Assembly: GCF_042453785.1 (NCBI RefSeq)
Contig: NC_091671.1
Coordinates: forward strand, 10,300,001 to 10,364,000
Direction of reading: 5' to 3'
Length of the DNA: 64,000 nt
From: Malus domestica
Lineage: Eukaryota; Streptophyta; Magnoliopsida; Rosales; Rosaceae
The translations under genes and the position numbers were made by a program. Below, one piece after another: positions 6,801-48,874 of the stretch. Each line of letters begins with the position of its first letter. The first letter of the stretch is position 1. The notes beneath the pieces were generated by a model. The model was not told where the DNA came from. It made no database searches and worked only from the letters and a program-made list of their open reading frames with translations.

Positions 6801-8293
6801 TTTGCCAAAAGTTGTTTCCCTGATTTACGTTCAGGTTTGTTAATTTTTGTTGCTACCAGATTCAGTACAATACATGCATTCATGCTTCGTGGTGCTTATC
6901 CAGTTTAGTAACATGAATTTTCATATGTAGTTTCACCATAAAGCTCTTCAAGCACCTGGAAGGGCCATCGCTGTTGCTGTTTCACGGCTGAAGGTACGCT
7001 TTTTATTTATGAAGGGAGCTTTCACTGCTAACTTCTCCTACAAGTTGAACATATTTGCAGTATGTCTAGCCAAGATGATTATCCTAGCAGTATAGTTTTG
7101 ACAAGATATTACTATATATCTCCATTCTTTTCAATAAATTATAATACTTGATCCAGTTAGCAGCTGGGAGAAAAAGAAAGAGACAAGATATGGTCGTTAA
7201 TTTTGGATTTTATTTATTTTGGTGATGTGATTTGCTACACAAGATCTGTTGAGTAGTAGGTTCCAATATTCAAGTCACCATAGAAACTGAACTTAAGGAA
7301 CTGAAAGCAAGGAATTGTACCCTTACTAGAAGAGTTCCTACGATTAATTTTTTTTTTTTCATTTGAATAAAAGGGTACAGTAGTAAACATAAACAGTCAT
7401 CCTGCCCTTTTTTCTTGTACATCCGATTAAAGGAAACTTCCTATCTTCACTCTTAAACAAAAGACATCACATCTCCCTATCCTGTCTTATTTTCCTCAAT
7501 AGAAATCATCATCTCATTTTTTTTCCGTATTGAACGCCCAATCAATGTATAAGGACACATCAGCTGCTCTGCTAATTGCTTCAGAGAGAACGTTGCTGGT
7601 ACTTTGCTATTACTGAGCTCCAACGATGCTCTGGCTCCCTGTATTTGTGTGCATATTGTTTCCAGTATTCTGTTCCTATTAACAACACAACTTTTTTCAG
7701 GATAAACTGGATGAATCAGCCTTCAAGATCCTGACAGATTATCAAACTGCAACAGTGACACTGTTAACGTTAATATCTGCTGCAAGTGTAGAGGTGAGCA
7801 ATTATTTTGCGGTTTTCTAGTCAGATACTTGGTGTATGCAATGATAACAATTGATCCATAAATTTTCATCCCTGAGCCAATATTTTATAGCACTTGAAAA
7901 AGTTTTTCTTCAAGGGCAAGTGGCTCTCTACCACAGTGGTGGAGAGGAGTGTTGACCTTGAACCATGACGTGAGTTCGAATCCCATCGGCTCCCTAATCT
8001 AACAAATCTATCATTTGACCAAAAAAAAAAATCTTCAAGGAGTTCATAAATGGTAGAGTATTGTATCATCCGATAAAATGTGCAGGTTTACCCTTAAATT
8101 TTCAAAATTTCTTTACTGTCTCGTTGAAGTATTAATTAATCTTATGCTATTAACCGGACTCATTACTTAATTTAATGTGTGTTTGCATCAGGAAGAAGAT
8201 TGTTCATCTGATAGACTCTTGAACAGAAGGGAGCTTTTGGAGACTCAAATGCCTGCACTCAAGGGCCTGGTCTTACGCACCTCACAATCCTGA
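849..8293 (+). CDS. UFL1: E3 UFM1-protein ligase 1 homolog (UFL1), 20 exons, 817 aa
   Basis: UFL1 transfers the ubiquitin-like modifier UFM1 to targets such as ribosomal uL24 at the ER. In animals it works with DDRGK1 and CDK5RAP3. Exons: 849-1022, 1310-1621, 1701-1967, 2210-2257, 2667-2732, 2856-2959, 3379-3472, 3551-3607, 4301-4733, 4838-4992, 5159-5224, 5316-5384, 5518-5613, 5765-5830, 6432-6478, 6576-6639, 6757-6834, 6931-6993, 7701-7793, 8192-8293. All junctions are GT-AG and the sum (2,454 nt) is a whole number of codons. The N-terminus (MDDELLELQRQFEFAQQAK) and the LHTVTGKEYITP segment match plant UFL1 closely. Residues about 375-518 (exon 9) form a Lys/Ser-rich disordered linker. The C-terminal exons encode LYEKALDLFEDDQST and TDYQTATVTL. 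The length fits the family (about 800 aa). Intron 18 and everything from exon 19 on are repeated downstream. Confidence 0.95.
1023..1060 (+). repeat. (CT)n microsatellite abutting the UFL1 intron 1 donor
   Basis: A run of about 14 CT dinucleotides begins within a few bases of the exon 1 splice donor (gtatac). Length polymorphism here would change the donor-proximal intron but not the coding sequence. Confidence 0.8.
7916..8031 (+). mobile_element. tRNA-derived SINE in UFL1 intron 19
   Basis: About 116 bp with an A-box-like segment near its start, a B-box-like core (agttcgaatcc near 7973), and a 3' A-run. It is bounded by a 9-bp direct repeat, tcttcaagg, at 7907-7915 and 8032-8040. The same insertion sits at the matching place in two downstream units (near 15300 and 23120). 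A diverged copy of this intron near 45.3 kb lacks it, so the insertion is younger than that copy and older than the other duplications. Confidence 0.75.
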
Positions 8294-9945
8294 CTCTGAC
8301 TTGAAATCTTGTTTCCGAAAATGAAATGAACCTCTGAAAACACAGTGGAATGCTTCAAATTAGAGATTGGCGTTCATATATTAGTGTTTAAATATCATTA
8401 CTACATCAATATCTTGTAAAAAAGAAAGATTATTAAGAAAGGCTTAGAAATTAGTAGATCCCTTGTGGGGGTCAGTCTTGAATTTGTTATGGATGCTACT
8501 TCAGTTTTGGTATGACTTAACATTAAAGAACTGAGAAATTTTATGTTCTGAATACAAATGGCACGCCCGGACCGGGCTTCGGTGGGTGGAAAGTAACCCC
8601 ACGTCTGGAAGAGATTTTTCAATATTTTCGAAACACATAGCGATACACTAGAATACAAGTAGTGAGACACTTATGTTAAAAATTTAACAACTTGCAAAAT
8701 AAAACTTCCCCTCATTTATACAATGACACGTGATATACCACCTATATTTCAGGTACATTTGGCATTGTGTTGAGAATATTAAAAATGATGATGATTTGTT
8801 CTGGATTCATTTTCATAAGGATTCGACGTGATCATGGAGTGCCGGCTGTCGACTACCTGACGCCCTCCCCCTCCTCCTTCATTTCTTACTAATTTAGTCG
8901 CAATCGCTAACAAACAATCCATCACCCAAACAAAGACTGGAAAACAAATGAAAGGGCCAATAATAATATAAGACCTTTTATTTTATTTTTTATTATTGGT
9001 TGAGGAAATTGAATAATAGTGCATAGCAAAATAGCGCGTAACACGGTGTAGAAAATAAATTAAATCATTGCAATAATAAATATGTAGTGGGTAACTTCAA
9101 CAACAAGGCATAGTAAGTAATCTTTTTTTTTTTGACATAAGTACAATATCCATTAATAATATAGATTAAGAATGCAACATCCAATAAAGATTAAGAATGC
9201 AATTTGGTTTAAAAGAACATATCATTCATGGTCATCACACTTCATGTTAAATACAATATGTATATGTTCTGGAATGGCAAGATTCACAGTTTTCATTTGA
9301 TAAAGGATAAAAGTGGCGTTTGTATTTCTTTTGGTCGAGGCTTTGACATTTTTTGTGGTTGAAGTTTGAATTGTGATTGATAGTGATTTATCAAATTGAA
9401 TTTTAACTGGTGTTGACTCGATTTGATTTAACTTAAAAAAATTCTTTAAATATAAATAGAACTGAGTTTGAATATAAAAAGAAAAATAATGAAAAATGAT
9501 TTAAAACTTTAAATCTTAACCAGACACATTTTAATAACTTTATTTAATAATTAGAACGAATAATAATAATAATAAAATATTAACAAAAATGGTCCCCACT
9601 TGGCTGGTTGGCTGCCTTGTAGCCACGCACGCCAAAAATTGGGTTGTTGCCCTCCTTTCATTGAAGTGCAAGCCATTTTAATTAAATAAAATTATTAGGT
9701 TAGTTTAGGTTTGAAGAATCTTTTTCGTTAGAACTCTCTAAATAAAATTGGACAACTCAAGCCTAATCTGAGTTAGGATTGGTTAACCATCCAATCCGTC
9801 GCCGAATTTCTTAGACTGAGTCACAAGGTCATAAATAATACTTGACTACAACTTGGCCAATTAACAGAATATCTTATTTATAATCGAAACTGTTATAACT
9901 ATAAGCACAATAGTTTGTGAAAAAGTCAAAAGTGTTTTTGAGAAA
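8294..9945 (+). other. UFL1 3' flank fused to an orphan BAHD promoter region
   Basis: There is no gene here. The sequence from about 8294 is repeated near 15690 and 23525. From about 9590 it runs through ggtccccacttggctgg and on to gtgtttttgagaaaa. In the 33-kb unit this is exactly the DNA just 5' of the BAHD gene. The promoter-side flank is therefore present without its gene; see the scar at 9946-9973. Confidence 0.7.
8799..8879 (+). mobile_element. 81-bp fragment of the RTE LINE 5' end
   Basis: This segment matches the 5' terminal part of the RTE element at 32457-32537 almost base for base, including ggattcgacgtgatcatgg and the CCTCCCCCTCC run. The other two array units have unrelated DNA at this position (near 16180 and 24020). 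It is a patch of LINE 5' sequence with no tail or target duplication that I can see. Confidence 0.8.
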
Positions 9946-15688: not shown

Positions 15689-17285
15689 CTCTGACTTAAA
15701 ATCTTGTTTCCGAAAGTGAAATGAACCTCTGAAAACACAGTGAAATGCTTCAAATTAGAGATTAGCGTTCGTATTTTAGTGTTTAAATATCATTACTACA
15801 TCTATATCTTGTAAAAAAGAAAGATTATTAAGAAAGGCTTCGAAATTAGTACATCCCTTGTGGGGGTCAGTCTTGAATTTGTTATGGATGCTACTTCAGT
15901 TTTGGTATGACTTAACATTAAAGAACTGAGAAATTTTATGTTCTGAATACAAATGGCACGCCCGGACCGGGCTTCGGTGGAAAGTAACCCCACATCTGGA
16001 AGAGATTTTTCAATATTTTCGGAACACAAAGTGATACACTAGAATACAAGTAGTGAAACACTTATGTTAAAAATTTAACTTACAAAATAAAACTTCCCCA
16101 CTTATACAATGACACGTGATATACCACCTGTGTTTCAGGTACATTTGGCGTTGTGTTGAGAATATTAAAAATGATGATGATGCTTGAGAATTTTTTTTGT
16201 AATTCATTTCTTACTAATTAAGTCGCATTTGCTTACAAACAATGCATCACCCAAACAAAGACTGGAAAACAAATGAAAGGGCCAATAATAATATAAGACT
16301 TTATTTTTATTTTTTATTATTGGTTGAGGAAATTAAATAATAGTGTAGAGCAACTTAGCACGCAACACGGTGTAGAAAATAAATTAAGTCATTGCAATAA
16401 TAAATATGTAGTGGGTAAGTTCAACAACAAGGCATAGTAAATAATCTTTTTTTTTGACATAAGTACAATATCCATTAATAATATAGATTAAGAATGCAAC
16501 ATCCAATAAAGATTAAGAATGCAATTTGATTTAAAAGAACATATCATTCATGGTCATCACACTTCATGTTAAATAAAATATGTATATGTTCTGGAATGAC
16601 AAGATTCAAAGTTTTCATTTGATAACGGATAAAAGTGGCGTTTGCATTTCTTTTGGTCGAGGCTTTGACATTTTTTGTGGTTGAAGTATGAATTGTGATT
16701 GATAGTGATTTATCAAATTGAATTTTAAATGGTGTTGACGCGATTTGATTTAAAAAATTCTTTAAATATAAAGTAGAACGGAGTTTGAATATAAAAAGGA
16801 AAATAATGAAAAATGTTTTAAAATTTTAAATCTTAACCAAACACACTTTAATAACTTTATTTAATAATTAGGACGAATAATAATAATAATAAAACAATAT
16901 TAACAAAAACACAAATTAATCAATTGTTGGTCCCCACTTGGCTGGTTGGCTGCCTTATAGCCACGCACGCCAAAAATTGGGTTGTTGCCCTCCTTTCATT
17001 GAAGTGCAAGCCATTTTAATTAAATAAAATTATTAGGTTAGTTTTGGTTTGAAGAATCCTTTTCATTAGAACTCTCTAAATAAAATTGGACAACTCGAGC
17101 CTAACCTGAGTTAGGATTGGTTGACCATCCAATCTGCCCTTGAATTTCTTAGACTGAGGCATAAGGTCATGAATAATACTTGACTATAATCTGGCCAATT
17201 AACAAAATATCTTATTTATAATCGAAACTGTTATAACTATAAGCACAATATTTCGGGAAAAAGTCAAAAAGTGTTTTTGAGAAAA
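15689..17285 (+). other. Orphan BAHD promoter region, unit II
   Basis: A diverged copy of 8294-9945 without the LINE patch. There is no ORF. The RTE target sequence is uninterrupted here (cctttcattgaagtgcaagccatttta, about 16991-17017), as it is near 9657. Confidence 0.6.
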
Positions 17286-24727: not shown

Positions 24728-24841
24728 TATTACCAAAAATACAAATTAATAATCGTTGGTCCCCACTTGGTTGGCTGGCTGCCTTATAGCCACGCAGGCC
24801 AAAAATTGGGTTGTTGCCCTCCTTTCATTGAAGTGCAAGCC
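23524..24841 (+). other. BAHD-1 distal promoter flank, left of the LINE
   Basis: Copy of 8294-9675 ending at the LINE target sequence attgaagtgcaagcc (24827-24841). It includes a (TAA)n run at 24690-24726. In the ancestor this DNA continued into 32602. Confidence 0.65.
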
Positions 24842-25475
24842 AACAACAACAACAACAACAACAACAACAAAGCCTTTTCCCACTAAGTGGGGTCGGCTAT
24901 ATGAATCCTAGAACGCCATTGCGCTCATTTGTGTCATGTCCTCCGTTAGATCCAAGTACTCAAGTCTTTTCTTAGGGTCTCTTCCAAAGTTTTCTTAGGT
25001 CTTCCTCTACTCCTTCGGCCCCGAACCTCTGTCCCGTAGTCACATTTTCGAACCGGAGCGTCAGTAGGCCTTCTTTGCACATGTCCAAACCACCGGAACC
25101 GATTTTCTCTTATATTTCCTTCAATTTTGGCTACTCCTACTTTACCTCGGATATCCTAATTCCCAATCTTATCCTTTCTCGTGTGCCCATACATCCCACG
25201 AAGCATCCTTATCTCCGCTACACCCATTTTGTGTACGTTGATGCTTCACCGCCCAACATTCTGTGCCATACAACATCGCTGGCCTTATTGCCGTCCTATA
25301 AAATTTTCCCTTGAGCTTCAGTGGCCTACGACGGTCACACAACACGCCGGATGCACTCTTACACTTCATCCATCCAGCTTGTATTCTATGGTTGAGATCT
25401 CCATCTAATTCTCCGTTCTCTTGCAAGATAGATCCTAGGTAGCGAAAACGGTCACTTTTTGTGATCTTCGCTAGA
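24842..25475 (-). mobile_element. RTE LINE 3' end fragment with (CAA)n tail
   Basis: On the plus strand it opens with about nine CAA repeats (a TTG tail on the element strand) and continues with gtggggtcggctatatgaatc. This matches the 3' part of the RTE at 29317-29890. Minus-strand translation reads [20 protein letters not shown] and [22 protein letters not shown], the end of the RTE reverse transcriptase, and is frameshifted after that. Homology stops near 25475. Confidence 0.85.
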
Positions 25476-26895
25476 TTGCTCCGGTCATTAGTGTGGATAA
25501 GTATATAAATGGAGAGAGATAGGAAAGCAAACACAAGATGTACGTGGTTCACCCAGATTGGCTACGTCCACGGAATATAGGAGTTCTCATTAATTGTGAA
25601 GGGTTTACACAAGTACATAGGTTCAAGCTCTCCTTTAGTGGGTACAAGTGAATGATTTAGTACAAATGACATTAGGAAATATTGTGGGAGAATGATCTCG
25701 TAGCCACGAAACTTCTAAGTACCGGAGTGTGGTATCGTCTTGACTTGCCTTATCTGTCTCATAGGTAGATGTGGCATCTTCTCTGGAAGTACTCTTCCTC
25801 CATCCAGGGGTGGTATCTGTAACTGGTGGAGATGCACAAGGTAATGTATCAATTTCACTTGAAGCTTACTTGTAGTTTCATGCTTGGTCAAGCGAGATAC
25901 AAACCATGTAGTAGGAGTCCCCCAAGTCGCCGAGCTGGGGGATTTGCTGAAAGAGGTGACAGACAAGGTAAGCAATCAGAGCTCCGGCTGATTGTTCACA
26001 TTCTCCCTATCTTGCAGGCAGCATGAAGGATAAAGAGAAGAAAAATGAGGAGAGATGATATGGGATACTTTTGCTTTTGAAGAAGTAACTTTCCACAGGC
26101 TTATTCTTGAACTGGGCTGGAGGGTTTTCTGGTTTCCTCCAGAGTATAAGGCCGACTGAAGAATTTGAGGGTCAAAACAAGTCCATCAAATCTAGAGTAC
26201 GTTCGACCCTGCTGATATGGGATACTTTTGCTTTTGATAGAGTAGTGGATGTATCGGCACGTGTGCTGTTACGCTTGTCTCCACATGCTTCCTTGTATCC
26301 TTCTCACTTGCCCTATCTGTTCCTCAGGCAGATGCGGTATCTTCCCTGGAAGCATAAGATGTTGAAGATGAGTACTCGAGAGCAATGCCAGGTAAGTAAT
26401 CAGGTAAGGGGTTCCAGGCAGTCAGTTCCTAGCTGAAAGCTTGATTCCAAGTGCTGACTGATTGCTCTCTTTCTCCTTGTCTTGCAGGTAAGAACAAGGC
26501 CAAAGGAAAAGACAGGGAAAAAGCATGATATGGGATACTCTTGCTTTTAACCCTGATGATATGAGATAATCTTGCTCTAGTATAGCTTGTTTACAGAGGT
26601 ATTATCGGGGGGAAAGAAAGCTGAATATTTCGAAAGGCTTTGTTGGGAGTGCCCTCTCAGATAAGAGAAAGGGTTGAGCATTTTTGCAGGTCTGCCTGTC
26701 CGTTAGGGATGGAAGTCGACATATATAGGAGTCTCCCTAACATCAAGTAATAATGTTATTCCTTTACCCTGCTTGGTTATAGCACGGTAGTGGGAGCTGC
26801 CAGCTTCACATGTTTTAACTCTGTCAGAGCACTTTGAAAAAGTGGTTTGTGGTATCTGGAAAGCTGATGTTGCGTGTGAAGATTACAGACCTGTC

Positions 26896-27150
26896 GGGGG
26901 TCTGGCTCTCGAGATTCGGAGAACGATGCCTCTTCGATTTTTGAGAAAGCAATCCTGCTGGGGGTCTGGCTCTCGAGATTCGGAGAACGATGCCTCTTCG
27001 ATTTTTGAGAAAGCAATCCTGCTGGGGGTCTGGCTCTCGAGATTCGGAGAGCGGTGTCTCTTCGATTTTTGAGAAAGTAATCATGTTGGGAGTCTGGCTC
27101 TCGAGATTCGGAGGGCCGTGCCTCTTCGATTTTGGAGCAAGCAATCTTGT
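26896..27150. repeat. 64-bp tandem repeat, about 4 copies
   Basis: Units start at 26896, 26960, 27024 and about 27088 with gggggtctggctctcgagat and end in cctcttcgatttttgagaaa. The period is exactly 64 bp for the first three copies. Confidence 0.9.
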
Positions 27151-27720
27151 TGGGAGTGTTTTCTCGAATGTGAGTAAAGGTTGGGCATGTTTGCTAGTCT
27201 ACCTTGCCACGAAGCACAGAGGTCGACACACAGGGACTTTCCAATTATCCAGCAGTGGTACTGTTCCTTTACCCTCTCTTCGATTTTGAGAAAGTAATCA
27301 TGTTGGGAGTCTGGCTCTCGAGATTCGGAGGGCGGTGCCTCTTCGATTTTGGAGCAAGTAATCTTGTTGGGAGTGTTTTCTCGAATGTGAGTAAAGGTTG
27401 GGCATGTTTGCTAGTCTACCTTGCCACGAAGCACAAAGGTTGACACACAGGGACTTTCCAATTATCCAGCAGTGGTACTGTTCCTTTACCCTCTCTTCGA
27501 TTTTTGAGAAAGTAATCATGTTGGGAGTCTGGCTCTCGAGATTCGGAGGGCGGTGCCTCTTCGATTTTGGAGCAAGCAATCTTGTTAGGAGTGTTTTCTC
27601 GAATGTGAGTAAAGGTTGGGCATGTTTGCTAGTCTACCTTGCCACGAAGCACAGAGGTTGACACACCGGGACTTTCCAATTATCCAGCAGTGGTACTGTT
27701 CCTTTACCCTTGTGGGTAAT
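27069..27720. repeat. 217-218-bp tandem repeat, about 3 copies
   Basis: The segment ttgggagtctggctctcgag recurs at 27086, 27303 and 27521. Each copy includes one 64-bp-type unit plus tttgctagtctaccttgcca and ttatccagcagtggtactgt. The larger array appears to have grown from the edge of the 64-bp array. Confidence 0.9.
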
Positions 27721-28021
27721 AATATGGTAGCTAGACCTTCAAAATTTATGTGTCTAAACTTTGTTAGTGTTGTTTCTTTGCAATTCTTTTACCCTTCTTG
27801 GTCAAAGCGATGTAGTGGGAGCTGCAAGCTTCACGTGTCTCAACTTTGTCAGAGAACTTTGGCAAAGTTATCTGTGGTACCCATGAGCTACTGTTGCGTG
27901 TGGGAAGTGGGTGATTGAACAGTACGATTCATGTGCTTTCTACTTCGCCAGAAATCTTCGACAGAATGCCCATAATTTCCGCAAAGCTGAGTGTGCGTGT
28001 GACAGGTGCTGACAAGGCTGG

Positions 28022-28240
28022 ACTGAAATCGGCCCTCGTGGTCTCTGAGCAGCCCAGCTTTTGAGAAAGCAAGACTCTTCGATTTCTGAGATCGGCCTTT
28101 GTGGTCTTTGAGCAGCCCAGCTTTTGAGAAAGCAAACACCTCTTCGATTTCTGAGATCGACCCTCGTGGTCTCTGAGCAGCCCAGCTTTTGAGAAAGCAA
28201 ACGCCTCTTCGATTTCTGAGCAGGCGCCTCTTCGATTTCT
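28022..28240. repeat. 64-66-bp tandem repeat, about 3.5 copies
   Basis: Units start at about 28026, 28090 and 28155 with atcggccctcgtggtctctg. Each ends with agcttttgagaaagcaa and cctcttcgatttctgag. The closing motif is shared with the 64-bp array 1 kb upstream. Confidence 0.9.
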
Positions 28241-28381
28241 GAAGCGTCGTCGAGTGCAGATTTTTATAGGGGCTGATATTAAGTTCCAAAGCACACTTGA
28301 ATATTCACCAGTAGAAGCTCCATTCTTGCACTTCTAAGATCTTGATTTGTCCGACCTCTTCTCTCTTCAACACCTTTGAAA

Positions 28382-29056
28382 ATGTATGGCCCCTCCGACC
28401 GTCGTTTTGACTTGAACCTTGTTGAAGAGGCAACCCCGCCTTCTCCAGACAACATATGGCGCCCATCCTTCGTCTCCCCTACTGGTCCTCTTACCGTTGG
28501 GGATTCCGTGATGAAGAATGATATGACCGCTGCGGTAGTGGCCAGGAACCTTCTCACTCCCAAAGATAACAGACTACTTTCCAAACGGTCTGATGAGTTG
28601 TCTGTTAAGGATTCTCTGGCTCTCAGTGTTCAGTGTGCAGGTTCTGTGTCTAATATGGCCCAACGCCTATTTGCTCGAACCCGCCAAGTTGAATCATTGG
28701 CGGCTGAAGTGATGAGTCTCAAACAGGAGATTAGAGGGCTCAAGCATGAGAATAAACAGTTGCACCGGCTCGCACATGACTATGCTACAAACATGAAGAG
28801 GAAGCTTGACCAGATGAAGGAATCTGATGGTCAGGTTTTACTTGATCATCAGAGATTTGTAGGTTTGTTCCAAAGGCATTTATTGCCTTCGTCTTCTGGG
28901 CTGTACCGCGTAATGAAGCTCCAAATGATCAATCTCTGATGCCTCCTCCTTCTAGGGTTTTGTCCAGTACTGAGGCTCCGAATGATCCCCCTCCGGTGCC
29001 TTCTCTTTCTGGGGCTCTACCGACTGCTGAGACTTCTCCTAAGCAACCTTTGTGAA
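28382..29056 (+). pseudogene. Coiled-coil ORF of the non-autonomous element, frameshifted
   Basis: The first ATG gives MYGPSDRRFDLNLVEEATPP. A heptad-like stretch follows (QVESLAAEVMSLKQEIRGLK, then HENKQLHRLAHDYATNMKRK), consistent with a coiled coil. The frame shifts at about 28899, in cttctgggctgtacc, where one G seems to be missing compared with the related downstream cttctttctggggctctacc. After it another frame stays open (APNDQSLMPPP, then EAPNDPPPVPSLSGALPTAE) to the TGA at 29053-29055. There is no catalytic motif. The function of this family is unknown to me. Confidence 0.55.
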
Positions 29057-29315
29057 GGCTCCCTCTTGTTTGTTTATTTTGACTCAAGTATATGTACATA
29101 TTTGTAACTTATCGGGGATATCAATAAATAAGCTTTCCTTCATTTCAACGTATTGTGTTAAATACACCAAAGCCTTCTTCGCTAAGTTCTTTGAATTTTC
29201 TTTTGTTGAAGCTTGTATGTTGAAGCTTTGTGAGTGGAGCATATAGGTTGAGGTAGTGTTCCCTTAATTTCCCGAGTGAGGAAAACTTCTCGGTTGGAGA
29301 CTTGAAAAATCCAAG

Positions 29316-32300
29316 TCACTGAGTGGGATCGGCTATATGAATCTTAGAACGCCATTGTGTTCTGTCCTGTGTCATGTCCTCCGTTAGATCCAAGTACTCT
29401 AAGTCTTTTCTTAGGGTCTCTTCCAAAGTTTTCCTAGGTCTTCCTCTGCCCCTTCGGCCTTGAACCTCTGTCCCATAGTCGCTTCTTCTAATCGGAGCGT
29501 CAGTAGGCCTTCTTTGCACATGTCCAAACCACCGTAACCGATTTTCTCTCATATTTCCTTCAATTTCGGCTACTCCTACTTTACCCCGGATATCCTCATT
29601 CCTAATCTTATCTTTTCTCGTGTGCCCACACATCCAACGAAGCATCCTCATCTCCGCTACACCCATTTTGTGTACGTGTTGATGCTTCACCGCCCAACAT
29701 TCTGTGCCATACAGCATCGCTGGCCTTATTGCCGTCCTATAAAATTTTCCCTTGAGCTTCAGTGGTATACGGCAGTCACACAACACGCCGGATGCACTCT
29801 TCCACTTCATCCATCCAGCTTGTATTCTATGGTTGAGATCTCCATCTAATTCTCCGTTCTTTTGCAAGATAGATCCTAGGTAACGAAAACGGTCGCTCTT
29901 TGGTATTTCTTGATCTCCGATCCTCACCCCTAACTCGTTTTGGCCTCCATTTGCACTGAACTTGCACTCTATATATTCTGTCTTTGATCGGCTTAGGCGA
30001 AGACCTTTAGATTCCAACACTTCTCTCCAAAGGTTAAGCTTTGCATTTACCCCTTCCTGAGTTTCATCTATCAACACTATATCGTCTGCGAAAAGCATAC
30101 ACCAAGGAATATCACCTTGAATATGTCCTGTTAACTCATCCATTACCAACGCAAAAAGGTAAGGACTTAAGGATGAGCCTTGATGTAATCCTACAGTTAT
30201 GGGAAAGCTTTCGGTTTGTCCTTCATGAGTTCTTACGACAGTCTTTGCTCCTTCATACATATCCTGTATAGCTTGGATATATGCTACTCGTACTCCTTTC
30301 TTCTCTAAAATCCTCCAAAGAATGTCTCTTGGGACCCTATCATATGCTTTTTCCAAATCTATAAAGACCATGTGTAAATCCTTTTTCCCATCTCTATATC
30401 TTTCCATCAATCTTCGTAAGAGATAGATTGCCTCCATGGTTGAGCGCCCTGACATGAACCCGAATTGGTTGTCCGAAACCCGTGTCTCTTGCCTCAATCT
30501 ATGCTCAATGACTCTCTCCCAGAGCTTCATTGTATGACTCATTAGCTTAATTCCCCTATAGTTCATGCAATTTTGTACATCGCCCTTATTCTTGTAGATA
30601 GGCACCAAAGTGCTCATTCACCACTCATTCGGCATCTTCTTCGTTTTCAAAATCCTATTGAAAAGGTCAGTGAGCCATGTTATACCTGTCTCTCCCAAAA
30701 CTTTCCACACTTCGATTGGTATATCGTCTGGGCCTACTGCTTTTCTATGCTTCATCTTCTTTAAAGCTACACCCACTTCTTCCTTCCGGATTCTACGATA
30801 AAAAGAGTAGTTTCTACACTCTTCTGAGTTACTCAACTCCCCTAAAGAAGCACTCCTTTCATGTCCTTCATTGAAAAGATTATGAAAATAACCTTTCCAT
30901 CTGTCTTTAACCGCGTTCTCTGTAGCAAGAACCTTTCCATCCTCATCCTTGATGCACCTCACTTGGTTTAGGTCATTTGTCTTCTTTTCCCTTGCTCTAG
31001 CTAGTTTATAGATATCCAACTCTCCTTCTTTGGTATCTAGTCGCTTATACATATCGTCATAAGCCGCTAACTTAGCTTCTCTCACAGCTTTCTTCGCCTC
31101 TTGCTTCTCTTTTCTATACCTTTCACCATTTTCATCGGTCCTATCCTTATATAAGGCTTTACAACATTCCTTCTTAGCCTTCACCTTTGCTTGTACCTCC
31201 TCATTCCACCACCAAGATTCCTTTTGGTGTGGGGCAAAGCCCTTGGACTCTCCTAATACCTCGTTTGCTACTTTTCGGATACAACTAGCCATGGAATCCC
31301 ACATTTGGTTAGCTTCCCCCTCTCTATCCCACACACACTGGGTGATTACTTTCTCTTTGAAAATGGCTTGTTTTTCTTCTTTTAGATTCCACCATCTAGT
31401 CCTTGGGCACTTCCAAGTCTTGTTCTTTTTTCTCACTCTTTTGATATGTACATCCATCACCAACAAGCGATGTTGATTAGTCACGCTCTCTCCTGGTATA
31501 ACTTTGCAATCCTTACAAGTTATACGATCCCCTTTCCTCATTAGAAGAAAATCTATTTGTGTTTTTGACGACCCACTCTTGTAGGTGATCACATGTTCTT
31601 CTCTCTTCTTAAAGAAGGTGTTGGCTAAGAAGAGATCATATGCCATTGCAAAATCCAAGATAGCTTCCCCATCCTCGTTTCTCTCCCCAAAACCATGGCC
31701 ACCATGAAAACCTCCATAGTTGCCTGTCTTCCTGCCCACGTGTCCATTTAAATCTCCTCCTATAAATAACTTCTCCGTCTGAGCAATTCCTTGCACCAAG
31801 TCTCCAAGGTCTTCCCAAAATTTCTCCTTCGAACTCGTATCCAACCCTACTTGAGGTGCGTACGCACTAATCACATTGATAAGTTCTTGTCTTATTACAA
31901 TCTTGATTGCCATGATTCTATCTCCTACCCTCTTGACATCTACAACATCTTGTGTCAAGGTCTTGTCCACGATGATGCCAACACCGTTTCTCGTTCTATT
32001 TGTGCCCGAATACCATAGTTTAAACCCTGAGTTTTCTAGATCCTTTGCCTTACGACCAACCCACTTAGTTTCTTGTAGGCACATAATATTTATCTTTCTC
32101 CTCACCATAACTTCTACTACTTCCATAGATTTTCCCGTCAAGGTTCCTATATTCCACGTTCCTAAACGCATTTTGCTCTCTTGAACTCTACCCTTCTGTC
32201 CTATCTTCTTCACCCTTCCCCGTCTAATAGGATCAAAGTACTTCTTTTGTGTGTCCCGTGTAAAGTTGATAGGAGCATATGCTCCCAAACAACTTTGAGT

Positions 32301-32474
32301 GGAGTCGTTCGAAAAGAAGTTTCTATAGCCCCCTTGCTCATTTAACACTGTATCCGGGTGCCGATGGAGATACAACGACCCTTGCTCACTTATCACTGTG
32401 CTCAGGCCACACAGCGCGCCACTTACGGGTGACGCCCTAGCTTTAGCGCGATTTCGTTCTGGATTCATTTTCAT
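29316..32474 (-). pseudogene. RTE-type LINE polyprotein (endonuclease + reverse transcriptase), one in-frame stop
   Basis: The protein reads N to C from 32474. An apurinic-type endonuclease domain comes first (MRLGTWNIGTLTGKSMEVVE, LQETKW, NVISAYAPQ, GGDLNGHVG, and SKTQIDFLL near its end). A linker follows, then a reverse transcriptase ([66 protein letters not shown], and the catalytic FADDIVLID). Thumb and C-terminal regions end at [10 protein letters not shown]. One TGA at 30618-30620 (after MPNEW) splits a single continuous frame of about 1,050 codons. The element resembles the RTE clade: one ORF, a short tandem-repeat tail and no RNase H. Without readthrough it should be inactive. Confidence 0.9.
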
Positions 32475-32601
32475 AAGGATTCGACGTGATCATGGAGTGC
32501 CGGCTGTCGACTACCTGACGCCCTCCCCCTCCTCCTTTATCCGGGCTTGGGACCGGCAATGTAAGATAAACTTACACGGCGGAGTTATTGAAGTGCAAGC
32601 C

Positions 32602-33015
32602 ATTTTAATTAAATAAAATTGTTAGATTAGTTTTGGTTTGAAGAATCCATTACATTAGAACTCTCTAAATAAAATTGGGAAACTCAAGCCTAACCTGAGT
32701 TAGGATTGGTTGACTATCTAATCCGTCCCCGAATTTCTTAGACTGAGGCTAGACTGAGGCATAAGGTCATGAATAATACTTGACTATAACTTGGCCAATT
32801 AACAAAATATCTTATTTGTAATCGAAAATGTTATAATTATAAGCACAATATGTTGTGAAAAAGTCAAAAGTGTTTTTGAGAAAAATTCTTTCATAACCTT
32901 GAGTATGCAAGTATTATTCTAAAGTCATTGACTTATTGTTGCCGTTGGGCAAGAAAAGCTGCCTACTTATATGGACGGACTATTTATGAAAATCACAACT
33001 TTTGTGGAGCAAAAG
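32602..33015 (+). promoter_or_regulatory. Proximal promoter of BAHD-1
   Basis: This continues the array sequence displaced by the LINE. A TATA-like element, ttatatgg, is at 32967-32974 and is kept just 5' of all three BAHD genes (37963, 47485). An ATG (32971) overlaps it. If the TATA is used, transcription would begin about 30 bases later and the first ATG in the mRNA would be 33016. The LINE separates this proximal part from the distal flank by 7.7 kb. Confidence 0.5.
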
Positions 33016-34359
33016 ATGGCTTCAGAGATCAAAATTGAAGTGATCCACAAGGAAACAATTAAACCACTCTCTCCAACTCCTGACCACCTTAAAAGCTTGA
33101 GCTTCTCTGTTTTTGATCAGTATCAGCCTGAAACTTATATCCCACTACTTTTTTTCTATCCCAACAACAATAACAGCGACAACGGCGGGGTCAAAAATAA
33201 TGATCATCATTCTTTGTTTGCCGAAAGATCCAACCTTCTAAAGAAATCACTGTCTGAAGCCCTCACTCGATTCTACCCCTTCGCCGGAGAATTCAAATAC
33301 AATGTTTCAATCAGCTGCAATGACCATGGGGCTGCATTTCTTGAAGCCCAAGTCAACTGTCCCGCATCGAAGATTTTGGAAAACCCCGATTTTGAGATCC
33401 TAAAACAGTTGCTTCCGACTGATTGTATGTCCACACAAGCAGAGACTGGATATCTTGTGCTAGTCCAGGCCAACTCATTTGAATGTGGCGGATTGGCAAT
33501 CGGGGTCTGCATTTGCCATAAAGCCGCCGATGCTTTTACAGCGACCACATTCATCGAATGCTGGGCTGCACTTGCTCTTGGCTCGGCCAGTAGTACTACT
33601 GATCACCACGTACTGCTTCCTGAGGAATTTGGTATTGCAGCTTCTCTTTCCCCATCCCTTGATTCCTTCAACTCACCAGGAGCTCATGTGACAATTCGTA
33701 CCGAGAAAAGCACAACGAGGAGGTTTGTGTTTGATGCTTCGAAAATTTCTGCTCTCAAGTCTAAGGCTGCTAGTACCGTGGTCCCAAACCCAACACGTGT
33801 TGAAGTAGTATCAGCACTCATTTGGAAAAGCCTAATCCAAGCATCAAGATCGAAGTTAAGTTTGACGAAGGCATTCACGTGGTTTGCAGCGCTGAACTTG
33901 CGCAAAAGATGGGGGCAGGCCATGACAGAAAATATACTGGGGAATTTCGTGTGGTACACGGCAGCATTGACGACAGCAGAGGGTGAAGTAGAACTCGAGA
34001 GCTTGGTTGGTAAATTGAGGAAAGCGGTTGAGGAGTATAAGGAAAAGCATCCAAATGGAGTCAGTGGTGAGGAAGTATTTCAAACCATCAAAGCGTCTGC
34101 GAGTCGTTCGTTGGGGGGAGTCGTAGAAATGTATGGTTGCACCAGCTGGTGCAGGCTTCCGTTGTATGAAACCAATTTCGGATGGGGAAAGCCGTCATGG
34201 GCGACTTCTGTACCTATCAATGGTTTATTTTGTCTGAGTGACACAAGAGATGGTGATGGCATAGAAGCAGCCTTGTCATTGAAAGAAGACGTCATGGCCA
34301 TAATCGAAAGCAGCGAGGACCTGCTCCAGTATGCTTCTCTGAATCCGACTGTCATGTGA
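33016..34359 (+). CDS. BAHD acyltransferase, vinorine synthase-like (copy 1)
   Basis: Single-exon gene of 447 aa from MASEIKIEVIHKETIKPLSP. BAHD enzymes transfer acyl groups from acyl-CoA to alcohols or amines in the cytosol. The catalytic HxxxD is HKAAD at residues 168-172 (33517 on). The structural DFGWG motif appears as NFGWG at 387-391. ENILGNFVWY fits the vinorine synthase/clade III subgroup. An in-frame ATG at 32971 would add 15 residues (MDGLFMKITTFVEQK), but the 447-aa form matches family length and the TATA position. The substrate cannot be inferred. The protein is intact, but its distal promoter flank is split off by the LINE. Confidence 0.9.
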   Translation: MASEIKIEVIHKETIKPLSPTPDHLKSLSFSVFDQYQPETYIPLLFFYPNNNNSDNGGVKNNDHHSLFAERSNLLKKSLSEALTRFYPFAGEFKYNVSISCNDHGAAFLEAQVNCPASKILENPDFEILKQLLPTDCMSTQAETGYLVLVQANSFECGGLAIGVCICHKAADAFTATTFIECWAALALGSASSTTDHHVLLPEEFGIAASLSPSLDSFNSPGAHVTIRTEKSTTRRFVFDASKISALKSKAASTVVPNPTRVEVVSALIWKSLIQASRSKLSLTKAFTWFAALNLRKRWGQAMTENILGNFVWYTAALTTAEGEVELESLVGKLRKAVEEYKEKHPNGVSGEEVFQTIKASASRSLGGVVEMYGCTSWCRLPLYETNFGWGKPSWATSVPINGLFCLSDTRDGDGIEAALSLKEDVMAIIESSEDLLQYASLNPTVM

Positions 34360-36633: not shown

Positions 36634-38011
36634 CTGCCCAAAACATTTGACGCGTAGGGGAAGAAGATGGAAGGGGAAGGGAGAGAGAGAGGATGGACGG
36701 GAGAGAGATGGGTAGGGGAGAGAGGGGATTGAGATGATTTGTTTGAGTGTAACAAGAATAATATTAAAGTTATTGATTAATCGACCGTCAAATTAATTTA
36801 AGAGTTTAAATAAAAAAGAACCTCATAAGCCCTCAAAATGAGAACCTTATATGAGCTTTGCTCGATCTAAGTTTAGCGGGAATTTGAACAATAACTAAAA
36901 AAACTGTTTTTGTCCACTATTAAAGCAAGAATAATGGTGAGTGTGCAACTTTTCGTTCCCATTTGGGCACTAAGTTTTCTTTCCTCTTCAAATTTTCGAT
37001 TTTGATTTCCGTTTTCTCCCTCCCTCTCTTTTTTTTTTCCTTTTCTTAAATGTTGGATTGGATTTGTATTCCACGTTGGTGTTTGCCTCACTCATATGCA
37101 GGCAGCAGATTTCTATTTTCGAGTTTGAATATAACATTATTTTATGGCCCAATTGGATTATTAGTCCCATGAGGATATGGTAGTTGGAAGATAGTACATG
37201 TGGTAAAAAATTAAGATTTTTGTCCGTGTGGTGAAGTCTATTAGGATTTAAGCCCGTGTGAGCCTTATGTGCTAATAATTAACGGAGAGTTAACAAAATT
37301 TTCAATTTTGGGTTTAAATTCTAACAGACTTCATCACATGGCTTAAATCCTAATTTTTTTACTTCATGGACTATTTTTCAACTACTCTATCACCACCGGA
37401 CTATTAATCTAATTAAACCTTATTTTATTTGTTTATCACAAATTGGTGATTCCGATGACTTTATTTGTTTATCACAAATTGGTGATTCCGATGACTTTTT
37501 GTAATTCATTCCTTACTAATTTAGTCACCATCACTTACCACTTGACAATCCATCACCCAGAGTCCCAGACAAAGACTAGAAAAGAAATGAAAGCGTTGAG
37601 CCAAGTTTGGAGTAGAGTTTGTGGCCGATGCTAAGTGCCTGCTTTGTTAAAACAGTGGGCCAATAATAATATGACCTTTTTTTGTTTGTTTTATTTGTTG
37701 AGGATAATAGTGCATAGCAACACATCATACATTTAAATCCTTGCAATAAAAAATATGTAGTGGGAAGCATCAGAGGCACAGTAAATACTTGGCTGCTACT
37801 TGTTGGCCGATTCACAGAACATTTGGTCTATGATTGAAACCGTTATAATTATAAACACAATGTTTTGTGAATCAATTAGAAAGAGTTTTTGAGGAAAACT
37901 TTCATTGAGTTGCCAAGTATTATTCTGAAGTCATCGACTCATTGTATGGTAACCGTGCCTACTTATATGGACCAACTTTTTATGAAAATCACAACTTGTG
38001 TGGAGCAAAAG
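36634..38011 (+). other. End of unit III and BAHD-2 promoter
   Basis: To about 37620 it repeats the end of units I and II. A local duplication of about 44 bp (atcacaaattggtgattccgatgac) is at 37436-37500. From 37622 it is BAHD-2 upstream sequence with the TATA-like ttatatgg at 37963-37970. A TTG-initiated extension from 37889 is open but not credible as coding. Confidence 0.55.
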
Positions 38012-39358
38012 ATGGCTTCAGAGATCAAGGTTGAAGTGATCCACAAGGAAACAATTAAACCATTCTATCCAACTCCTGACCACCTAAGAAGCTTGAGCCT
38101 CTCTGTTTTTGATCAGTATCAACCTGAAGTTTATATCCCACTACTTATCTTCTATCCCAACAACAATAACAGCGACAACAGCCAGGTCAAAAACAGTGAT
38201 CATCGTTCATTGTTTGCCGAAAGGTCCATCCTTCTAAAGAAATCACTGTCTGAAGCCCTCACTCGATTCTACCCCTTCGCCGGAGAATTCAAATACAATG
38301 TTTCAATCAATTGCAATGACCATGGGGCTGCATTTCTTGAAGCCCAAGTCAACTGTCCTGTATCGAAGATTTTGAAAAACCCCGATTTTGAGATCCTAAA
38401 ACAGTTGCTTCCAACTGATTGTATGTCCACGCAAGCTGAGACAGGATATCTTGTGCTAGTCCAGGCCAACTTATTTGAATGTGGAGGATTGGCAATCGGG
38501 ATCAGCATTTACCATAAAGCCGCCGATGCTTTTACAACCACCACATTCATCAAATGTTGGGCTGCACTTGCTTTTGGCTCGGCCAGTAGTACTACTGATC
38601 ACCACGTATTGCTTCCCGAGGAATTCGGTGTTGCAGCTTCTCTTGCACCATCCCATGATTCCTTCGACTCACCAGGAGCTCCTGTGACATTTTCTACGGA
38701 GAAACTCACAACGAGGAGGTTTGTGTTTGATGCTTCGAAAATTTCTGCTCTCAAGTTTAAGGCTGCTAGCGCCACGGTGCCAAACCCAACGCGTGTTGAA
38801 GTAGTATCGGCAGTCATTTGGAAAAGCCTAATACAAGCATCAAGATCGAAGTTTGGTTTTATGAAGCCATCCACATGGTGTGCAATGTTGAACTTGCGCA
38901 AACGATCGGGGCAGGCCGTGACAGAAAACATACAGGGGAATTTCGTGTGGTTCGCTGCAGCATTGACGACGGAAGAGCAGAGCGAAGTAGAGCTCGAGAG
39001 CTTAGTTGGTAAACTCAGGAAAGGGATTGCGGAATATAAGGAAAAGCATCCAAATGGAGTCAGTGGTGAGGAAGTATTTCAAACCATCAAAGCGTTTGTG
39101 AGCCTTTTCTTGAGAGGAGACTTAGAAATCTATACTTGCAGCAGCTGGTGCAGGTTTCCGTTGTATGAAACCAATTTCGGATGGGGAAAGCCGACATGGG
39201 TGACTTCTCAACCATTCAATGATTTATTTTTTTTGACTGATACGAGAGATGGTGATGGCATAGAATTGTCCTTGTCACTGAAAGAAGACGTCATGACCAT
39301 ATTCGAAAGCAGCGAGGACCTGCTCACGTATGCTTCTCTGAATCCGACTGTCATTTGA
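38012..39358 (+). CDS. BAHD acyltransferase, vinorine synthase-like (copy 2)
   Basis: Single exon, 448 aa from MASEIKVEVIHKETIKPFYP. HxxxD is HKAAD at 168-172 in the context GISIYHKAADAF. The DFGWG equivalent is NFGWG at 388-392. It has one extra residue relative to copy 1 near TTEEQSEVELE. Substitutions cluster around the substrate channel side of the motif (CICHKA, SIYHKA, SIHHKA in the three copies), which could alter acceptor preference (inference). In-frame ATGs at 37967 (MDQLFMKITTCVEQK) and 37946 would extend it. I chose the start that is equivalent in all three copies. Confidence 0.9.
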   Translation: MASEIKVEVIHKETIKPFYPTPDHLRSLSLSVFDQYQPEVYIPLLIFYPNNNNSDNSQVKNSDHRSLFAERSILLKKSLSEALTRFYPFAGEFKYNVSINCNDHGAAFLEAQVNCPVSKILKNPDFEILKQLLPTDCMSTQAETGYLVLVQANLFECGGLAIGISIYHKAADAFTTTTFIKCWAALAFGSASSTTDHHVLLPEEFGVAASLAPSHDSFDSPGAPVTFSTEKLTTRRFVFDASKISALKFKAASATVPNPTRVEVVSAVIWKSLIQASRSKFGFMKPSTWCAMLNLRKRSGQAVTENIQGNFVWFAAALTTEEQSEVELESLVGKLRKGIAEYKEKHPNGVSGEEVFQTIKAFVSLFLRGDLEIYTCSSWCRFPLYETNFGWGKPTWVTSQPFNDLFFLTDTRDGDGIELSLSLKEDVMTIFESSEDLLTYASLNPTVI

Positions 39359-46964: not shown

Positions 46965-47533
46965 CCCACTTCATATTATATAAAATACGTATACGTTTTG
47001 GGACGGCAAGATTCCAGGTTTTCTGTGGAGGTTGATATGTGGAATTGAAGTTTGAGTTGAGACTGATAGTGATTTATCAAATTGAATTTTAACTGGTGTT
47101 GATGCTGTTTGATTTGATGTTTGATAAATAAAATTGGGCAACCTGAGCTAACCCGAGTCAACTTGAAAACGATTGAAACACGAGCGCAAATGAATCTACA
47201 GGAACCCGAATGTGAGTCCGATTATAGGTTGCGTTAGGGACCTAGGGTTAGTTGCCCCTCCAATCCACCCCCGAATTGCCTAGCGTGGGATATAAGGTCA
47301 TGAATAATACTTAGCTGCTACTCTTGGCCACTTTACATAACTTCTTGTTTATGGTCGAAACCGTTGTAAACATAAGTACAATTTTTTGTAAATCAGTCAG
47401 AAAGTGTTTACGAGGAAAACTTCCTTTAAAACCTTGAGTAGCCAAGAATTATTGACTCATTGTGTGGTAGGTAACCCTGCCTACTTATATGGACCAACTC
47501 TTTATGAAAATCCTAACTTGTGTGGAGCAAAAG
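46965..47533 (+). promoter_or_regulatory. BAHD-3 promoter
   Basis: No other gene. The proximal part aligns with the other BAHD promoters and ends with the TATA-like ttatatgg at 47485-47492. Confidence 0.5.
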
Positions 47534-48874
47534 ATGGCTTCGGAGATCAAGATTGAAGTGATCCACAAGGAAACAATTAAACCACTCTCTCCAACTCCTG
47601 ACCACCTTAAAAGCTTGAGCCTCTCTGTTTTTGATCAGTATCAACCTGAAATTTATATCCCACTACTTTTCTTCTATCCCAACAAAAATAACAGCGACGA
47701 CGGCCAGGTCAAAAATATCGATCATCCTTCTTTGTTTGCCGAAAGATCCAACCTACTAAAGAAATCACTGTCTGAAGCCCTCACTCGATTCTACCCCTTC
47801 GCCGGAGAATTTAAATATAATGTTTCAATCAGCTGCAGTGACCGTGGGGCTGCATTTCTTGAAGCCCAAGTGAACTGTCCCGTATCGAGGATTTTGGAAA
47901 ACCCCGATTTTGAGATCCTAAAACGGTTGCTTCCAACTGATTGTATGTCCACACAAGCTGAGACAGGATATCTTGTGCTAGTCCAGGCCAACTTATTTGA
48001 ATGTGGCGGATTGGCAATCGGGGTCAGCATTCACCATAAAGCTGCCGATGCTTTTACAGCCGCCACATTCATCAAATGTTGGGCTGCACTCGCTCTTGGC
48101 TCGGCCAGTAGTACTACTCACCACGTACTGCTTCCCGAGGAATTCGGTGTTGCAGCTTCTCTTGCCCCATCCCTTGATTCCTTGGACTCACTAGGAGCTC
48201 CTGTGACATTTTCTACGGAGAGACACGCGACGAGGAGATTTGTGTTTGATGCTTCGAAAATTTCTGCTCTCAAGTCCAAGGCTGCTAGCGCCACGGTGCC
48301 AAACCCAACACGTGTTGAAGTAGCATCGGCAGTCATTTGGAAAAACCTAATACAAGCATCAAGATCGAAGTTTGGTCTTATGAAGCCATCCATGTGGTGT
48401 GCAACCGTGAACATGCGCAAAAGATGGGGGCAGGCTGTGACAGAAAACATACGGGGGAATTTCGTGTGGTACGCTGCAGCATTGATCACAGCAGAGAGCG
48501 AAGTAGAACTCGAGAGCTTGGTTGGTAAACTCAGGAAGGGGATTGAGGAATATAAGGAAAAGCATCCAAATGGAGTCAGTGGTGAGGAAGTATGTCAAAC
48601 CGTCAAAAGGTCTGCGGGTCTTTTGTTGAGCGGAGATATAGAAATGTATACTTGCAGCAGCTGGTGCAGGTTTCCGTTGTATGAAACCAATTTCGGATGG
48701 GGAAAGCCATCATGGGCAACGTCTCAACCATCCAATGGTTTAATTTGTTTGAGTGACACGAGAGATGGTGATGGCGTAGAAGCGTCCTTGTCATTGAAAG
48801 AAGACGTCATGGCCAAAATCGAAAGCAGCGACGACCTGCTCTCGTATGCTTCTATGAATCCGACCGTCGTTTGA
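47534..48874 (+). CDS. BAHD acyltransferase, vinorine synthase-like (copy 3)
   Basis: Single exon, 446 aa from MASEIKIEVIHKETIKPLSP. HxxxD is HKAAD at 168-172, preceded by an extra His (SIHHKAAD). The DFGWG equivalent is NFGWG at 386-390. It is one residue shorter than copy 1 because STTDHHV is STTHHV. A start at 47489 (MDQLFMKILTCVEQK) is the alternative. Motifs, length and frame are intact, so it should be functional if expressed. The acyl acceptor is unknown. Confidence 0.9.
   Translation: MASEIKIEVIHKETIKPLSPTPDHLKSLSLSVFDQYQPEIYIPLLFFYPNKNNSDDGQVKNIDHPSLFAERSNLLKKSLSEALTRFYPFAGEFKYNVSISCSDRGAAFLEAQVNCPVSRILENPDFEILKRLLPTDCMSTQAETGYLVLVQANLFECGGLAIGVSIHHKAADAFTAATFIKCWAALALGSASSTTHHVLLPEEFGVAASLAPSLDSLDSLGAPVTFSTERHATRRFVFDASKISALKSKAASATVPNPTRVEVASAVIWKNLIQASRSKFGLMKPSMWCATVNMRKRWGQAVTENIRGNFVWYAAALITAESEVELESLVGKLRKGIEEYKEKHPNGVSGEEVCQTVKRSAGLLLSGDIEMYTCSSWCRFPLYETNFGWGKPSWATSQPSNGLICLSDTRDGDGVEASLSLKEDVMAKIESSDDLLSYASMNPTVV

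Follow-up and report, generated by a model that had tools for sequence, protein, structure and literature searches.

In the 3' transductions made by L1, a long interspersed nuclear element (LINE), extra sequence with a second 3' end comes after the element body. Plant LINEs of the RTE clade, as described in PMC3747384, possess an endonuclease/reverse-transcriptase frame and a (TTG)n tail, generate target duplications that mostly start with T, and are subject to 5' truncation. Chimeric or tripartite LINE retrogenes, in which three transcripts are fused within one target duplication, have been reported as WEIRD/Mg-SINE/MGL in M. grisea and B2/U6/L1 in mouse, and chimeric retroinsertions are mostly single dead copies (PMC2104539). 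Here, we analyze a 7.7-kb composite element of Malus domestica, located within a stretch of 64,000 nucleotides (nt) referred to as the window (C11:10300001-10364000 of the 651-Mb, 19-contig genome searched). It comprises an RTE body, an insert of 3.86 kb derived from a long terminal repeat (LTR) retrotransposon, and a second RTE 3' end, and it is very probably one copy of a composite LINE that forms a multicopy family of its own.

The composite shares with plant RTE LINEs all of the features listed above, but it is more than twice as long, and it has LTR-element sequence and a second RTE 3' end in place of the broken 3' end that belonged to the body. Like the tripartite retrogenes, it appears to fuse three transcripts within one target duplication; those cases are single insertions with a 5'-truncated LINE part, whereas the composite keeps a whole LINE body and belongs to a family of thousands. 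It also differs from L1 3' transductions, as its body lacks its own 3' end and tail, its new end is a copy of the same LINE's 3' end, and the added part is common to the copies.

In element sense, which is the minus strand of the window, the order of parts is RTE body (32586-29317), other DNA (29316-25458), RTE 3' end (25457-24871), and tail (24870-24841). The body has a complete 5' end but is without the last ~19 nt of the RTE, corresponding to the 3' half of a hairpin, and without a tail. The tail of the composite consists of 10 perfect TTG units, which read as a perfect (CAA)10 on the forward strand. The 15-mer ATTGAAGTGCAAGCC stands at both ends (24827-24841 and 32587-32601), with 7,745 bp between the two copies; a 16th base (24842 and 32602) is common to both copies but is ambiguous with the tail, so that only 15 bp of the duplication (24827-24842 on the left, 32587-32602 on the right) are certain. 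The same 15-mer occurs on the forward strand in tandem units I (9660-9674) and II (16998-17012), making four exact matches against a mean of 0.14 in shuffles, in which up to two mismatches were allowed. On either side of the composite, the flanks match units I and II at 89-95% identity, and both units lack the composite. A prior reading of this DNA from its letters alone (the sequence-only reading) had proposed that a 15-bp repeat encloses a 7.7-kb composite and that units I and II represent the unoccupied site, and both proposals are borne out. The whole composite entered the window site in one target-primed event. Plant RTE insertions are reported to show a stretch of T about ten bases upstream and duplications that start with T and then usually A (PMC13295347). 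At the window copy there are three T at positions -9 to -11 and the duplication starts with T, but its second base is G, so the T-then-A part of the signature does not hold there.

Across the 651-Mb genome, we counted matches to three patterns, allowing up to two mismatches and using reversed patterns as controls. Junction A, from RTE body to insert, was matched 2,297 times (1,203 + 1,094), junction B, from insert to second 3' end, 2,226 times (1,091 + 1,135), and the RTE 5' end 249 times (111 + 138); the controls gave 0 matches for all three patterns. As the internal joints occur more than 2,200 times each, the fusion is older than the window copy. These counts refute the idea that the composite arose at the window site, be it through a new 3' transduction or through patching of a local RTE, and we regard such a local origin as vanishingly improbable even though there is a single target duplication and the RTE frame holds only one stop; an in-situ repair patch was likewise excluded by copy number. 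The sequence-only reading had suggested read-through of the first RTE end followed by one retrotransposition, that is, a candidate RTE 3' transduction. Its single retrotransposition event stands, but a transduction made at this insertion is not supported.

Among the 249 RTE 5' ends, we followed the 15 exact (0-mismatch) ones on C1 below 27.08 Mb, and all 15 lead into the composite. Twelve of them have a correctly oriented junction A match among those listed, nine at a distance of 3,218-3,243 bp and the others at 2,015, 2,863, and 9,013 bp, while the remaining three (L020, L036, and L037) show the composite by sequence. An RTE-only form, sought as a first-type end with an intact hairpin (≤3 mismatches; this pattern only), gave 0 matches. 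If each junction A copy retains the 4.4 kb that follow, the family would total ~10 Mb, or 1.6% of the genome. At C1:8086088-8086208, two junction B matches on opposite strands, whose starts are separated by 79 bp, represent 3' parts of the family arranged head to head.

A genome search with 24827-25475 gave 40 scored matches out of 2,039 candidates, one of the 40 being that of the window itself; these were 98-100% identical to the second 3' end and extended past the RTE part into the insert. We fetched the best 20 of the 39 other scored matches as 10-kb loci. The same order of RTE, foreign, and RTE sequence, whose presence elsewhere had been put forward as a check, was found in many copies, although no donor locus came to light, only family copies and partial sources. 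Junction B was present in 20 of 20 loci and junction A in 14 of 20, the other six being truncated short of A. Five of the 20 start exactly at composite nt 1 (L010, L020, L023, L024, and L025) and one at nt 8-11 (L014), whereas the other 14 begin at scattered points from nt 1064 to 7078. With the window copy included, 9 of 21 copies carry direct repeats of 13-18 bp at both ends; these lie at most 2 nt from the 5' end and have 3-6 nt in common with the end of the tail. Eight of these nine duplications start with T and five with TA, a T start being published for plant RTE insertions as well (PMC13295347). Two 5'-truncated copies have inverted starts: L028 opens with a fragment of the insert, 342 bp long and inverted, and to the left of L026 the sequence reads as inverted RTE. 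These inverted 5' pieces presumably reflect twin priming. Mean divergence from the sample majority was 0.49% for the first end (n = 15), 0.45% for the RTE body part (n = 11), 0.58% for the insert part (n = 19), and 0.40% for the second end (n = 21), with rows covering <95% of a piece omitted and the first-end row excluding loci that best matched the second-type end. Since divergence is alike across the parts, at 0.4-0.6%, the parts spread as a unit. Taken together, the common 5' end, 5' truncation, target duplications, and co-spreading parts mean that the chimera behaves as a LINE family.

The RTE open frame lies at 29316-32474 on the minus strand and encodes endonuclease and reverse transcriptase, with one in-frame stop at 30618-30620 and a closing stop on junction A. 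Pfam places Exo_endo_phos (PF03372) and RVT_1 (PF00078) on opposite sides of the in-frame stop, that is, an apurinic/apyrimidinic (AP)-type endonuclease followed by reverse transcriptase in one frame. Together with the (TTG)n tail, target duplications of variable length, and 5' truncation, this is the makeup of an RTE-type LINE. The clade name itself is a probable assignment, based on the tail, the domain order, and the published description of such elements (PMC3747384). The frame of 1,057 codons is open in four of the six near-full-length fetched copies (L010, L014, L023, and L024) and is broken in L020, L025, and the window copy. Each of the 14 fetched copies with junction A has the letters of the closing stop codon that lies on it.

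The two RTE 3' ends of the composite are not the product of a recent local duplication. When 24881-25461 was compared with 29317-29902, 39 of 581 aligned bases differed (38 in another alignment), along with 3 indels, which answers another check proposed earlier, on the divergence of the two ends. A late local duplication of the 3' end is ruled out by these differences and by unequal frame damage. The second end (24871-25457) carries two premature stops and three frameshifting indels. The second end shows five damaging events to the frame in 581 bp, and the first RTE only one in 3,157 bp (binomial p = 4.7e-4); within the 3' ends alone, the second has five and the first none (p = 0.03). An outgroup RTE (L001), which is only ~67% identical, polarized 27 of the 39 differences, 12 to the first end and 15 to the second, and left the other 12 unpolarized. 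Among the private changes, 7 are synonymous and 5 replacement in the first end, compared with 2 synonymous and 13 replacement in the other (Fisher one-sided p = 0.019). CpG losses, 4 in the first end and 3 in the second, were not unequal, as was the case for the raw polarized counts; an early reading in which the second end was simply older was rejected because both measures are near equal and the outgroup is distant. The synonymous/replacement split and the unequal frame damage suggest instead that the second end resembles an inactive copy and the first a selected lineage. The outgroup sequence (NZ_CP104070.1) is labeled as an Alicyclobacillus fastidiosus plasmid, but it appears to be a plant bacterial artificial chromosome (BAC) in an F-type vector with catA1, with an RTE copy inside. 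Apart from this mislabeled BAC, the viral, phage, plasmid, and prokaryote collections gave nothing useful, and a literature search for the sequence of the element was equally unproductive.

Despite its damaged frame, the second end has a complete terminal stem-loop. Both this end and the outgroup are able to form the same terminal fold, with an outer AGCC/GGCU pairing and an inner CCCAC/GUGGG pairing, whereas the first RTE end breaks off inside the 3' arm of the fold. The fold was no more stable than in shuffles (z = -0.58 and -1.21, and -1.76 for the outgroup). We also considered the 580-bp repeats as LTRs in their own right, and rejected this reading. They are RTE coding ends and neither is positioned as an LTR; only the second reaches the target duplication, by way of the tail.

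The insert between the two RTE parts derives from the 3' part of a Ty3/Gypsy-type element. Its minus-strand segment at 25458-25699 is part of a 3' LTR that ends ~50 nt before the LTR end, with junction B at 25457/25458, and the segment at 25700-29316 comes from internal 3' sequence of that LTR-element family, lying downstream of integrase and largely colinear with the genomic loci L031 and L035. Junction A lies at about 29316, and similarity to the LTR element continues to 29326. A search with a mis-spaced pattern found one composite copy and, in addition, four genomic places that carry the insert's left end without RTE; at these four, similarity starts at 25458 and the TG end of the LTR lies ~50 bp further on. 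Two of them (L033 and L034, 99.4% identical to each other) resemble solo LTRs of ~0.5 kb with a 5-bp duplication, ACATA. As a separate matter, this pair lies on C15, 71 kb apart, and its 3-kb stretches represent a recent segmental duplication or an assembly duplicate.

On C10, L031 and L032 have a common stretch of 510 bp at 95% identity, with L035 between them. Identity of the insert to L031/L035 varies by segment from 77 to 93%: it is 93% in the LTR part, 86% at 28223-29326, and 92% at the right edge, and ~0.3 kb present in L031 near the LTR is absent from the insert. Domains for gag (PF03732) and integrase (PF00665) lie on the minus strand of L032/L035, which is the RTE sense, upstream of the matching region and on the same strand, with an LTR at the end. 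A reverse-transcriptase piece and a 363-amino-acid piece of the C10 element gave no Pfam hit, and no clear target duplication was seen at its outer flanks. A frame of 187 amino acids at 28376-28939 on the forward strand, antisense to the composite, also has no Pfam hit and appears shifted near its 3' end, but it is 84% identical over 173 amino acids to a frame in L035. The C10 element has gag, integrase, antisense frame, and LTRs in that order. Its layout is that of Ty3/Gypsy elements in which an extra frame, in antisense, follows integrase, and this lineage is the probable source of the insert. The comparisons indicate that the insert is the part downstream of integrase, with the antisense frame, up to ~50 nt before the 3' LTR end. 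Compared with such an element, the composite has only the 3' part, probably moved by RTE machinery. The sequence-only reading had described a 3.8-kb foreign element in antisense; the open frame is indeed antisense to the RTE, but the source retrotransposon runs in RTE sense. Within the LTR-derived part, 26890-28220 also holds tandem arrays of 64-, 218-, and 65-bp units.

A nested insertion of the LTR element into a single RTE was rejected, as it had been in the sequence-only reading, which noted that it fails to explain the repeated 3' end. It would leave 580 repeated bases unaccounted for, and no target duplication of the insert's own was found: the insert ends share five six-mers, where the shuffled mean is 2.7 and 45 of 300 shuffles reach five. 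A looser, gapped similarity between the two ends was equaled by 33 of 2,000 shuffles. Neither of the two findings that the sequence-only reading had named as refuting it, a target duplication of the foreign element inside a single RTE or a strong identity of the two 3' ends, was made.

All parts of the composite lie in RTE sense, and the hairpin half and tail of the first RTE are lost. These properties, together with joints in short similar sequences, favor joining at the RNA level in an ancestor, by template switching in reverse transcription or by read-through. In the first case, reverse transcription would have begun at the 3' end of an RTE, moved onto an LTR-element RNA at its 3' end, and switched once more to an RTE mRNA, close to the 3' terminus of that mRNA, all within one insertion. 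We lean toward this double template switch, but only tentatively. It agrees with the arrangement of parts in RNA sense inside one target duplication and with the loss of the first RTE's hairpin half and tail. The insert stops inside the 3' LTR, and RNAs of LTR elements end within the 3' LTR. Furthermore, the RTE sequence at junction A, CCACTTAGTG, agrees with that of the LTR element, CCATTCAGTG, at 8 of 10 bases, and CAAA is common to both sides of junction B. Tripartite LINE chimeras with 14-bp repeats have been published (PMC2104539), and the same orientation of parts has been treated as a sign of RNA processing or template switching (PMC13174262). On the other hand, the closest LTR-element sequence found is so divergent, as given above by segment, that the source ends can be placed only approximately. 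At junction A, moreover, the acceptor would have been entered before its end, with ~19 nt and the tail left out, whereas the reverse transcriptase of R2 is reported to jump most readily when 1-2 nt pair with the 3' end of the template (PMC8857657).

Alternatively, an RTE upstream of or inside an LTR element may have been transcribed through to an old 5'-truncated RTE end in the 3' LTR and then retrotransposed, which is a possible but rather doubtful course. Such an old end in an LTR would be an ordinary nested insertion, and the private changes described above point to a second end that was frame-broken before the family spread. However, plain read-through of an intact element would leave the hairpin half and tail between body and insert, and neither precedes the flanking sequence as it would in a 3' transduction; the donor RTE must then have been 3'-deleted or spliced. 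No donor was found, and copies that start just after junction A do not extend into LTR-element sequence. The double template switch is placed slightly ahead of read-through because there is no remnant of a first tail and because of the likeness to published tripartite LINE chimeras (PMC2104539, PMC13174262, PMC2912911, PMC8857657). It is unlikely that the three elements were joined at the DNA level, by rearrangement or break repair, ahead of the first retrotransposition, as random joining would favor neither the same RNA sense nor an end inside an LTR. Templated patching does seem to occur in the array, in that unit I holds an 88-bp stretch (8793-8879) 98.9% identical to the RTE 5' region (32450-32537), without RTE end or tail and absent from units II and III, which has the look of a patch left by templated repair and not of an inserted LINE.

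The element may be copied as follows. The RNA would run from the single RTE 5' end through the endonuclease/reverse-transcriptase frame and the Ty3/Gypsy-type 3' part to the decayed RTE 3' end, which could still form the terminal stem-loop and would carry the (TTG)n tail. The protein of the first part would then prime on this borrowed distal hairpin and tail of the same RNA, and the whole RNA would be copied, with the usual 5' truncation; at the window locus, one event of insertion produced the single target duplication. If it is the distal hairpin and tail that the RTE protein uses, the stretch derived from the LTR element travels as a passenger in an extended 3' part.

Several observations weigh against reading the 7.7-kb stretch as one copy of a composite LINE family. 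The junction A count is slightly greater than that of junction B, the opposite of what 5' truncation predicts, although decay of the CpG-rich B pattern may be the cause of the excess. The 20 fetched loci are the closest matches and are thus biased toward young copies, and 12 of 21 copies show no clear target duplication, with repeats that are shorter or displaced (the fetched stretch of L012 is cut at its 3' end). Four of the 14 truncated copies (L012, L015, L027, and L029) start within 104 nt after junction A, at nt 3269, 3302, 3344, and 3374, a cluster that exceeds the expectation from even truncation and is unexplained; these four have no LTR-element sequence upstream and no clear target duplication. 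In addition, the RTE protein's need for the stem-loop finds no support in the folding, which is not unusual (z = -0.6 to -1.8), and conservation of the stem-loop rests on two sequences with no compensatory changes.

The tandem array that hosts the composite also contains BAHD-type acyltransferase frames (Pfam Transferase) at 32971-34359, 37889-39358, and 47489-48874. Rfam and tRNA scans returned nothing of use.

LINE/RTE content has been put at 8.03%, with M. baccata and M. domestica said to far exceed other Rosaceae, "suggesting a unique evolutionary event" (PMC6643876); the passage gives no cause for the excess. For comparison, LINE/RTE makes up 0.30% of a pear assembly (PMC3974708). A Golden Delicious assembly was assigned 4.1% LINE (PMC13334179), lower than 8.03%, so that published shares differ. 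No description of such a composite appeared among the open-access literature matches listed; no repeat library such as Repbase was searched, and part of the element may be catalogued in one of them. The founding fusion described here may underlie the RTE excess reported for Malus. It is conceivable, though we put this forward with some doubt, that one chimera, an RTE body without its own 3' end joined to the 3' part of an LTR element and a decayed RTE end, was a more successful 7.7-kb LINE that founded the apple-lineage RTE burst, took the place of the plain RTE, and makes up the greater part of the 8% LINE/RTE content reported for Malus. An annotation that expects a 3.3-kb RTE would report copies of the family as three separate items: one RTE, an LTR fragment, and another RTE. 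More broadly, a fusion of two retrotransposon classes that kept a whole enzyme has led to an abundant LINE that copies a 4.4-kb 3' extension with each full-length move. This suggests that a LINE is able to lose and replace its recognition end and yet thrive, and it offers a concrete candidate cause for the RTE excess of Malus.

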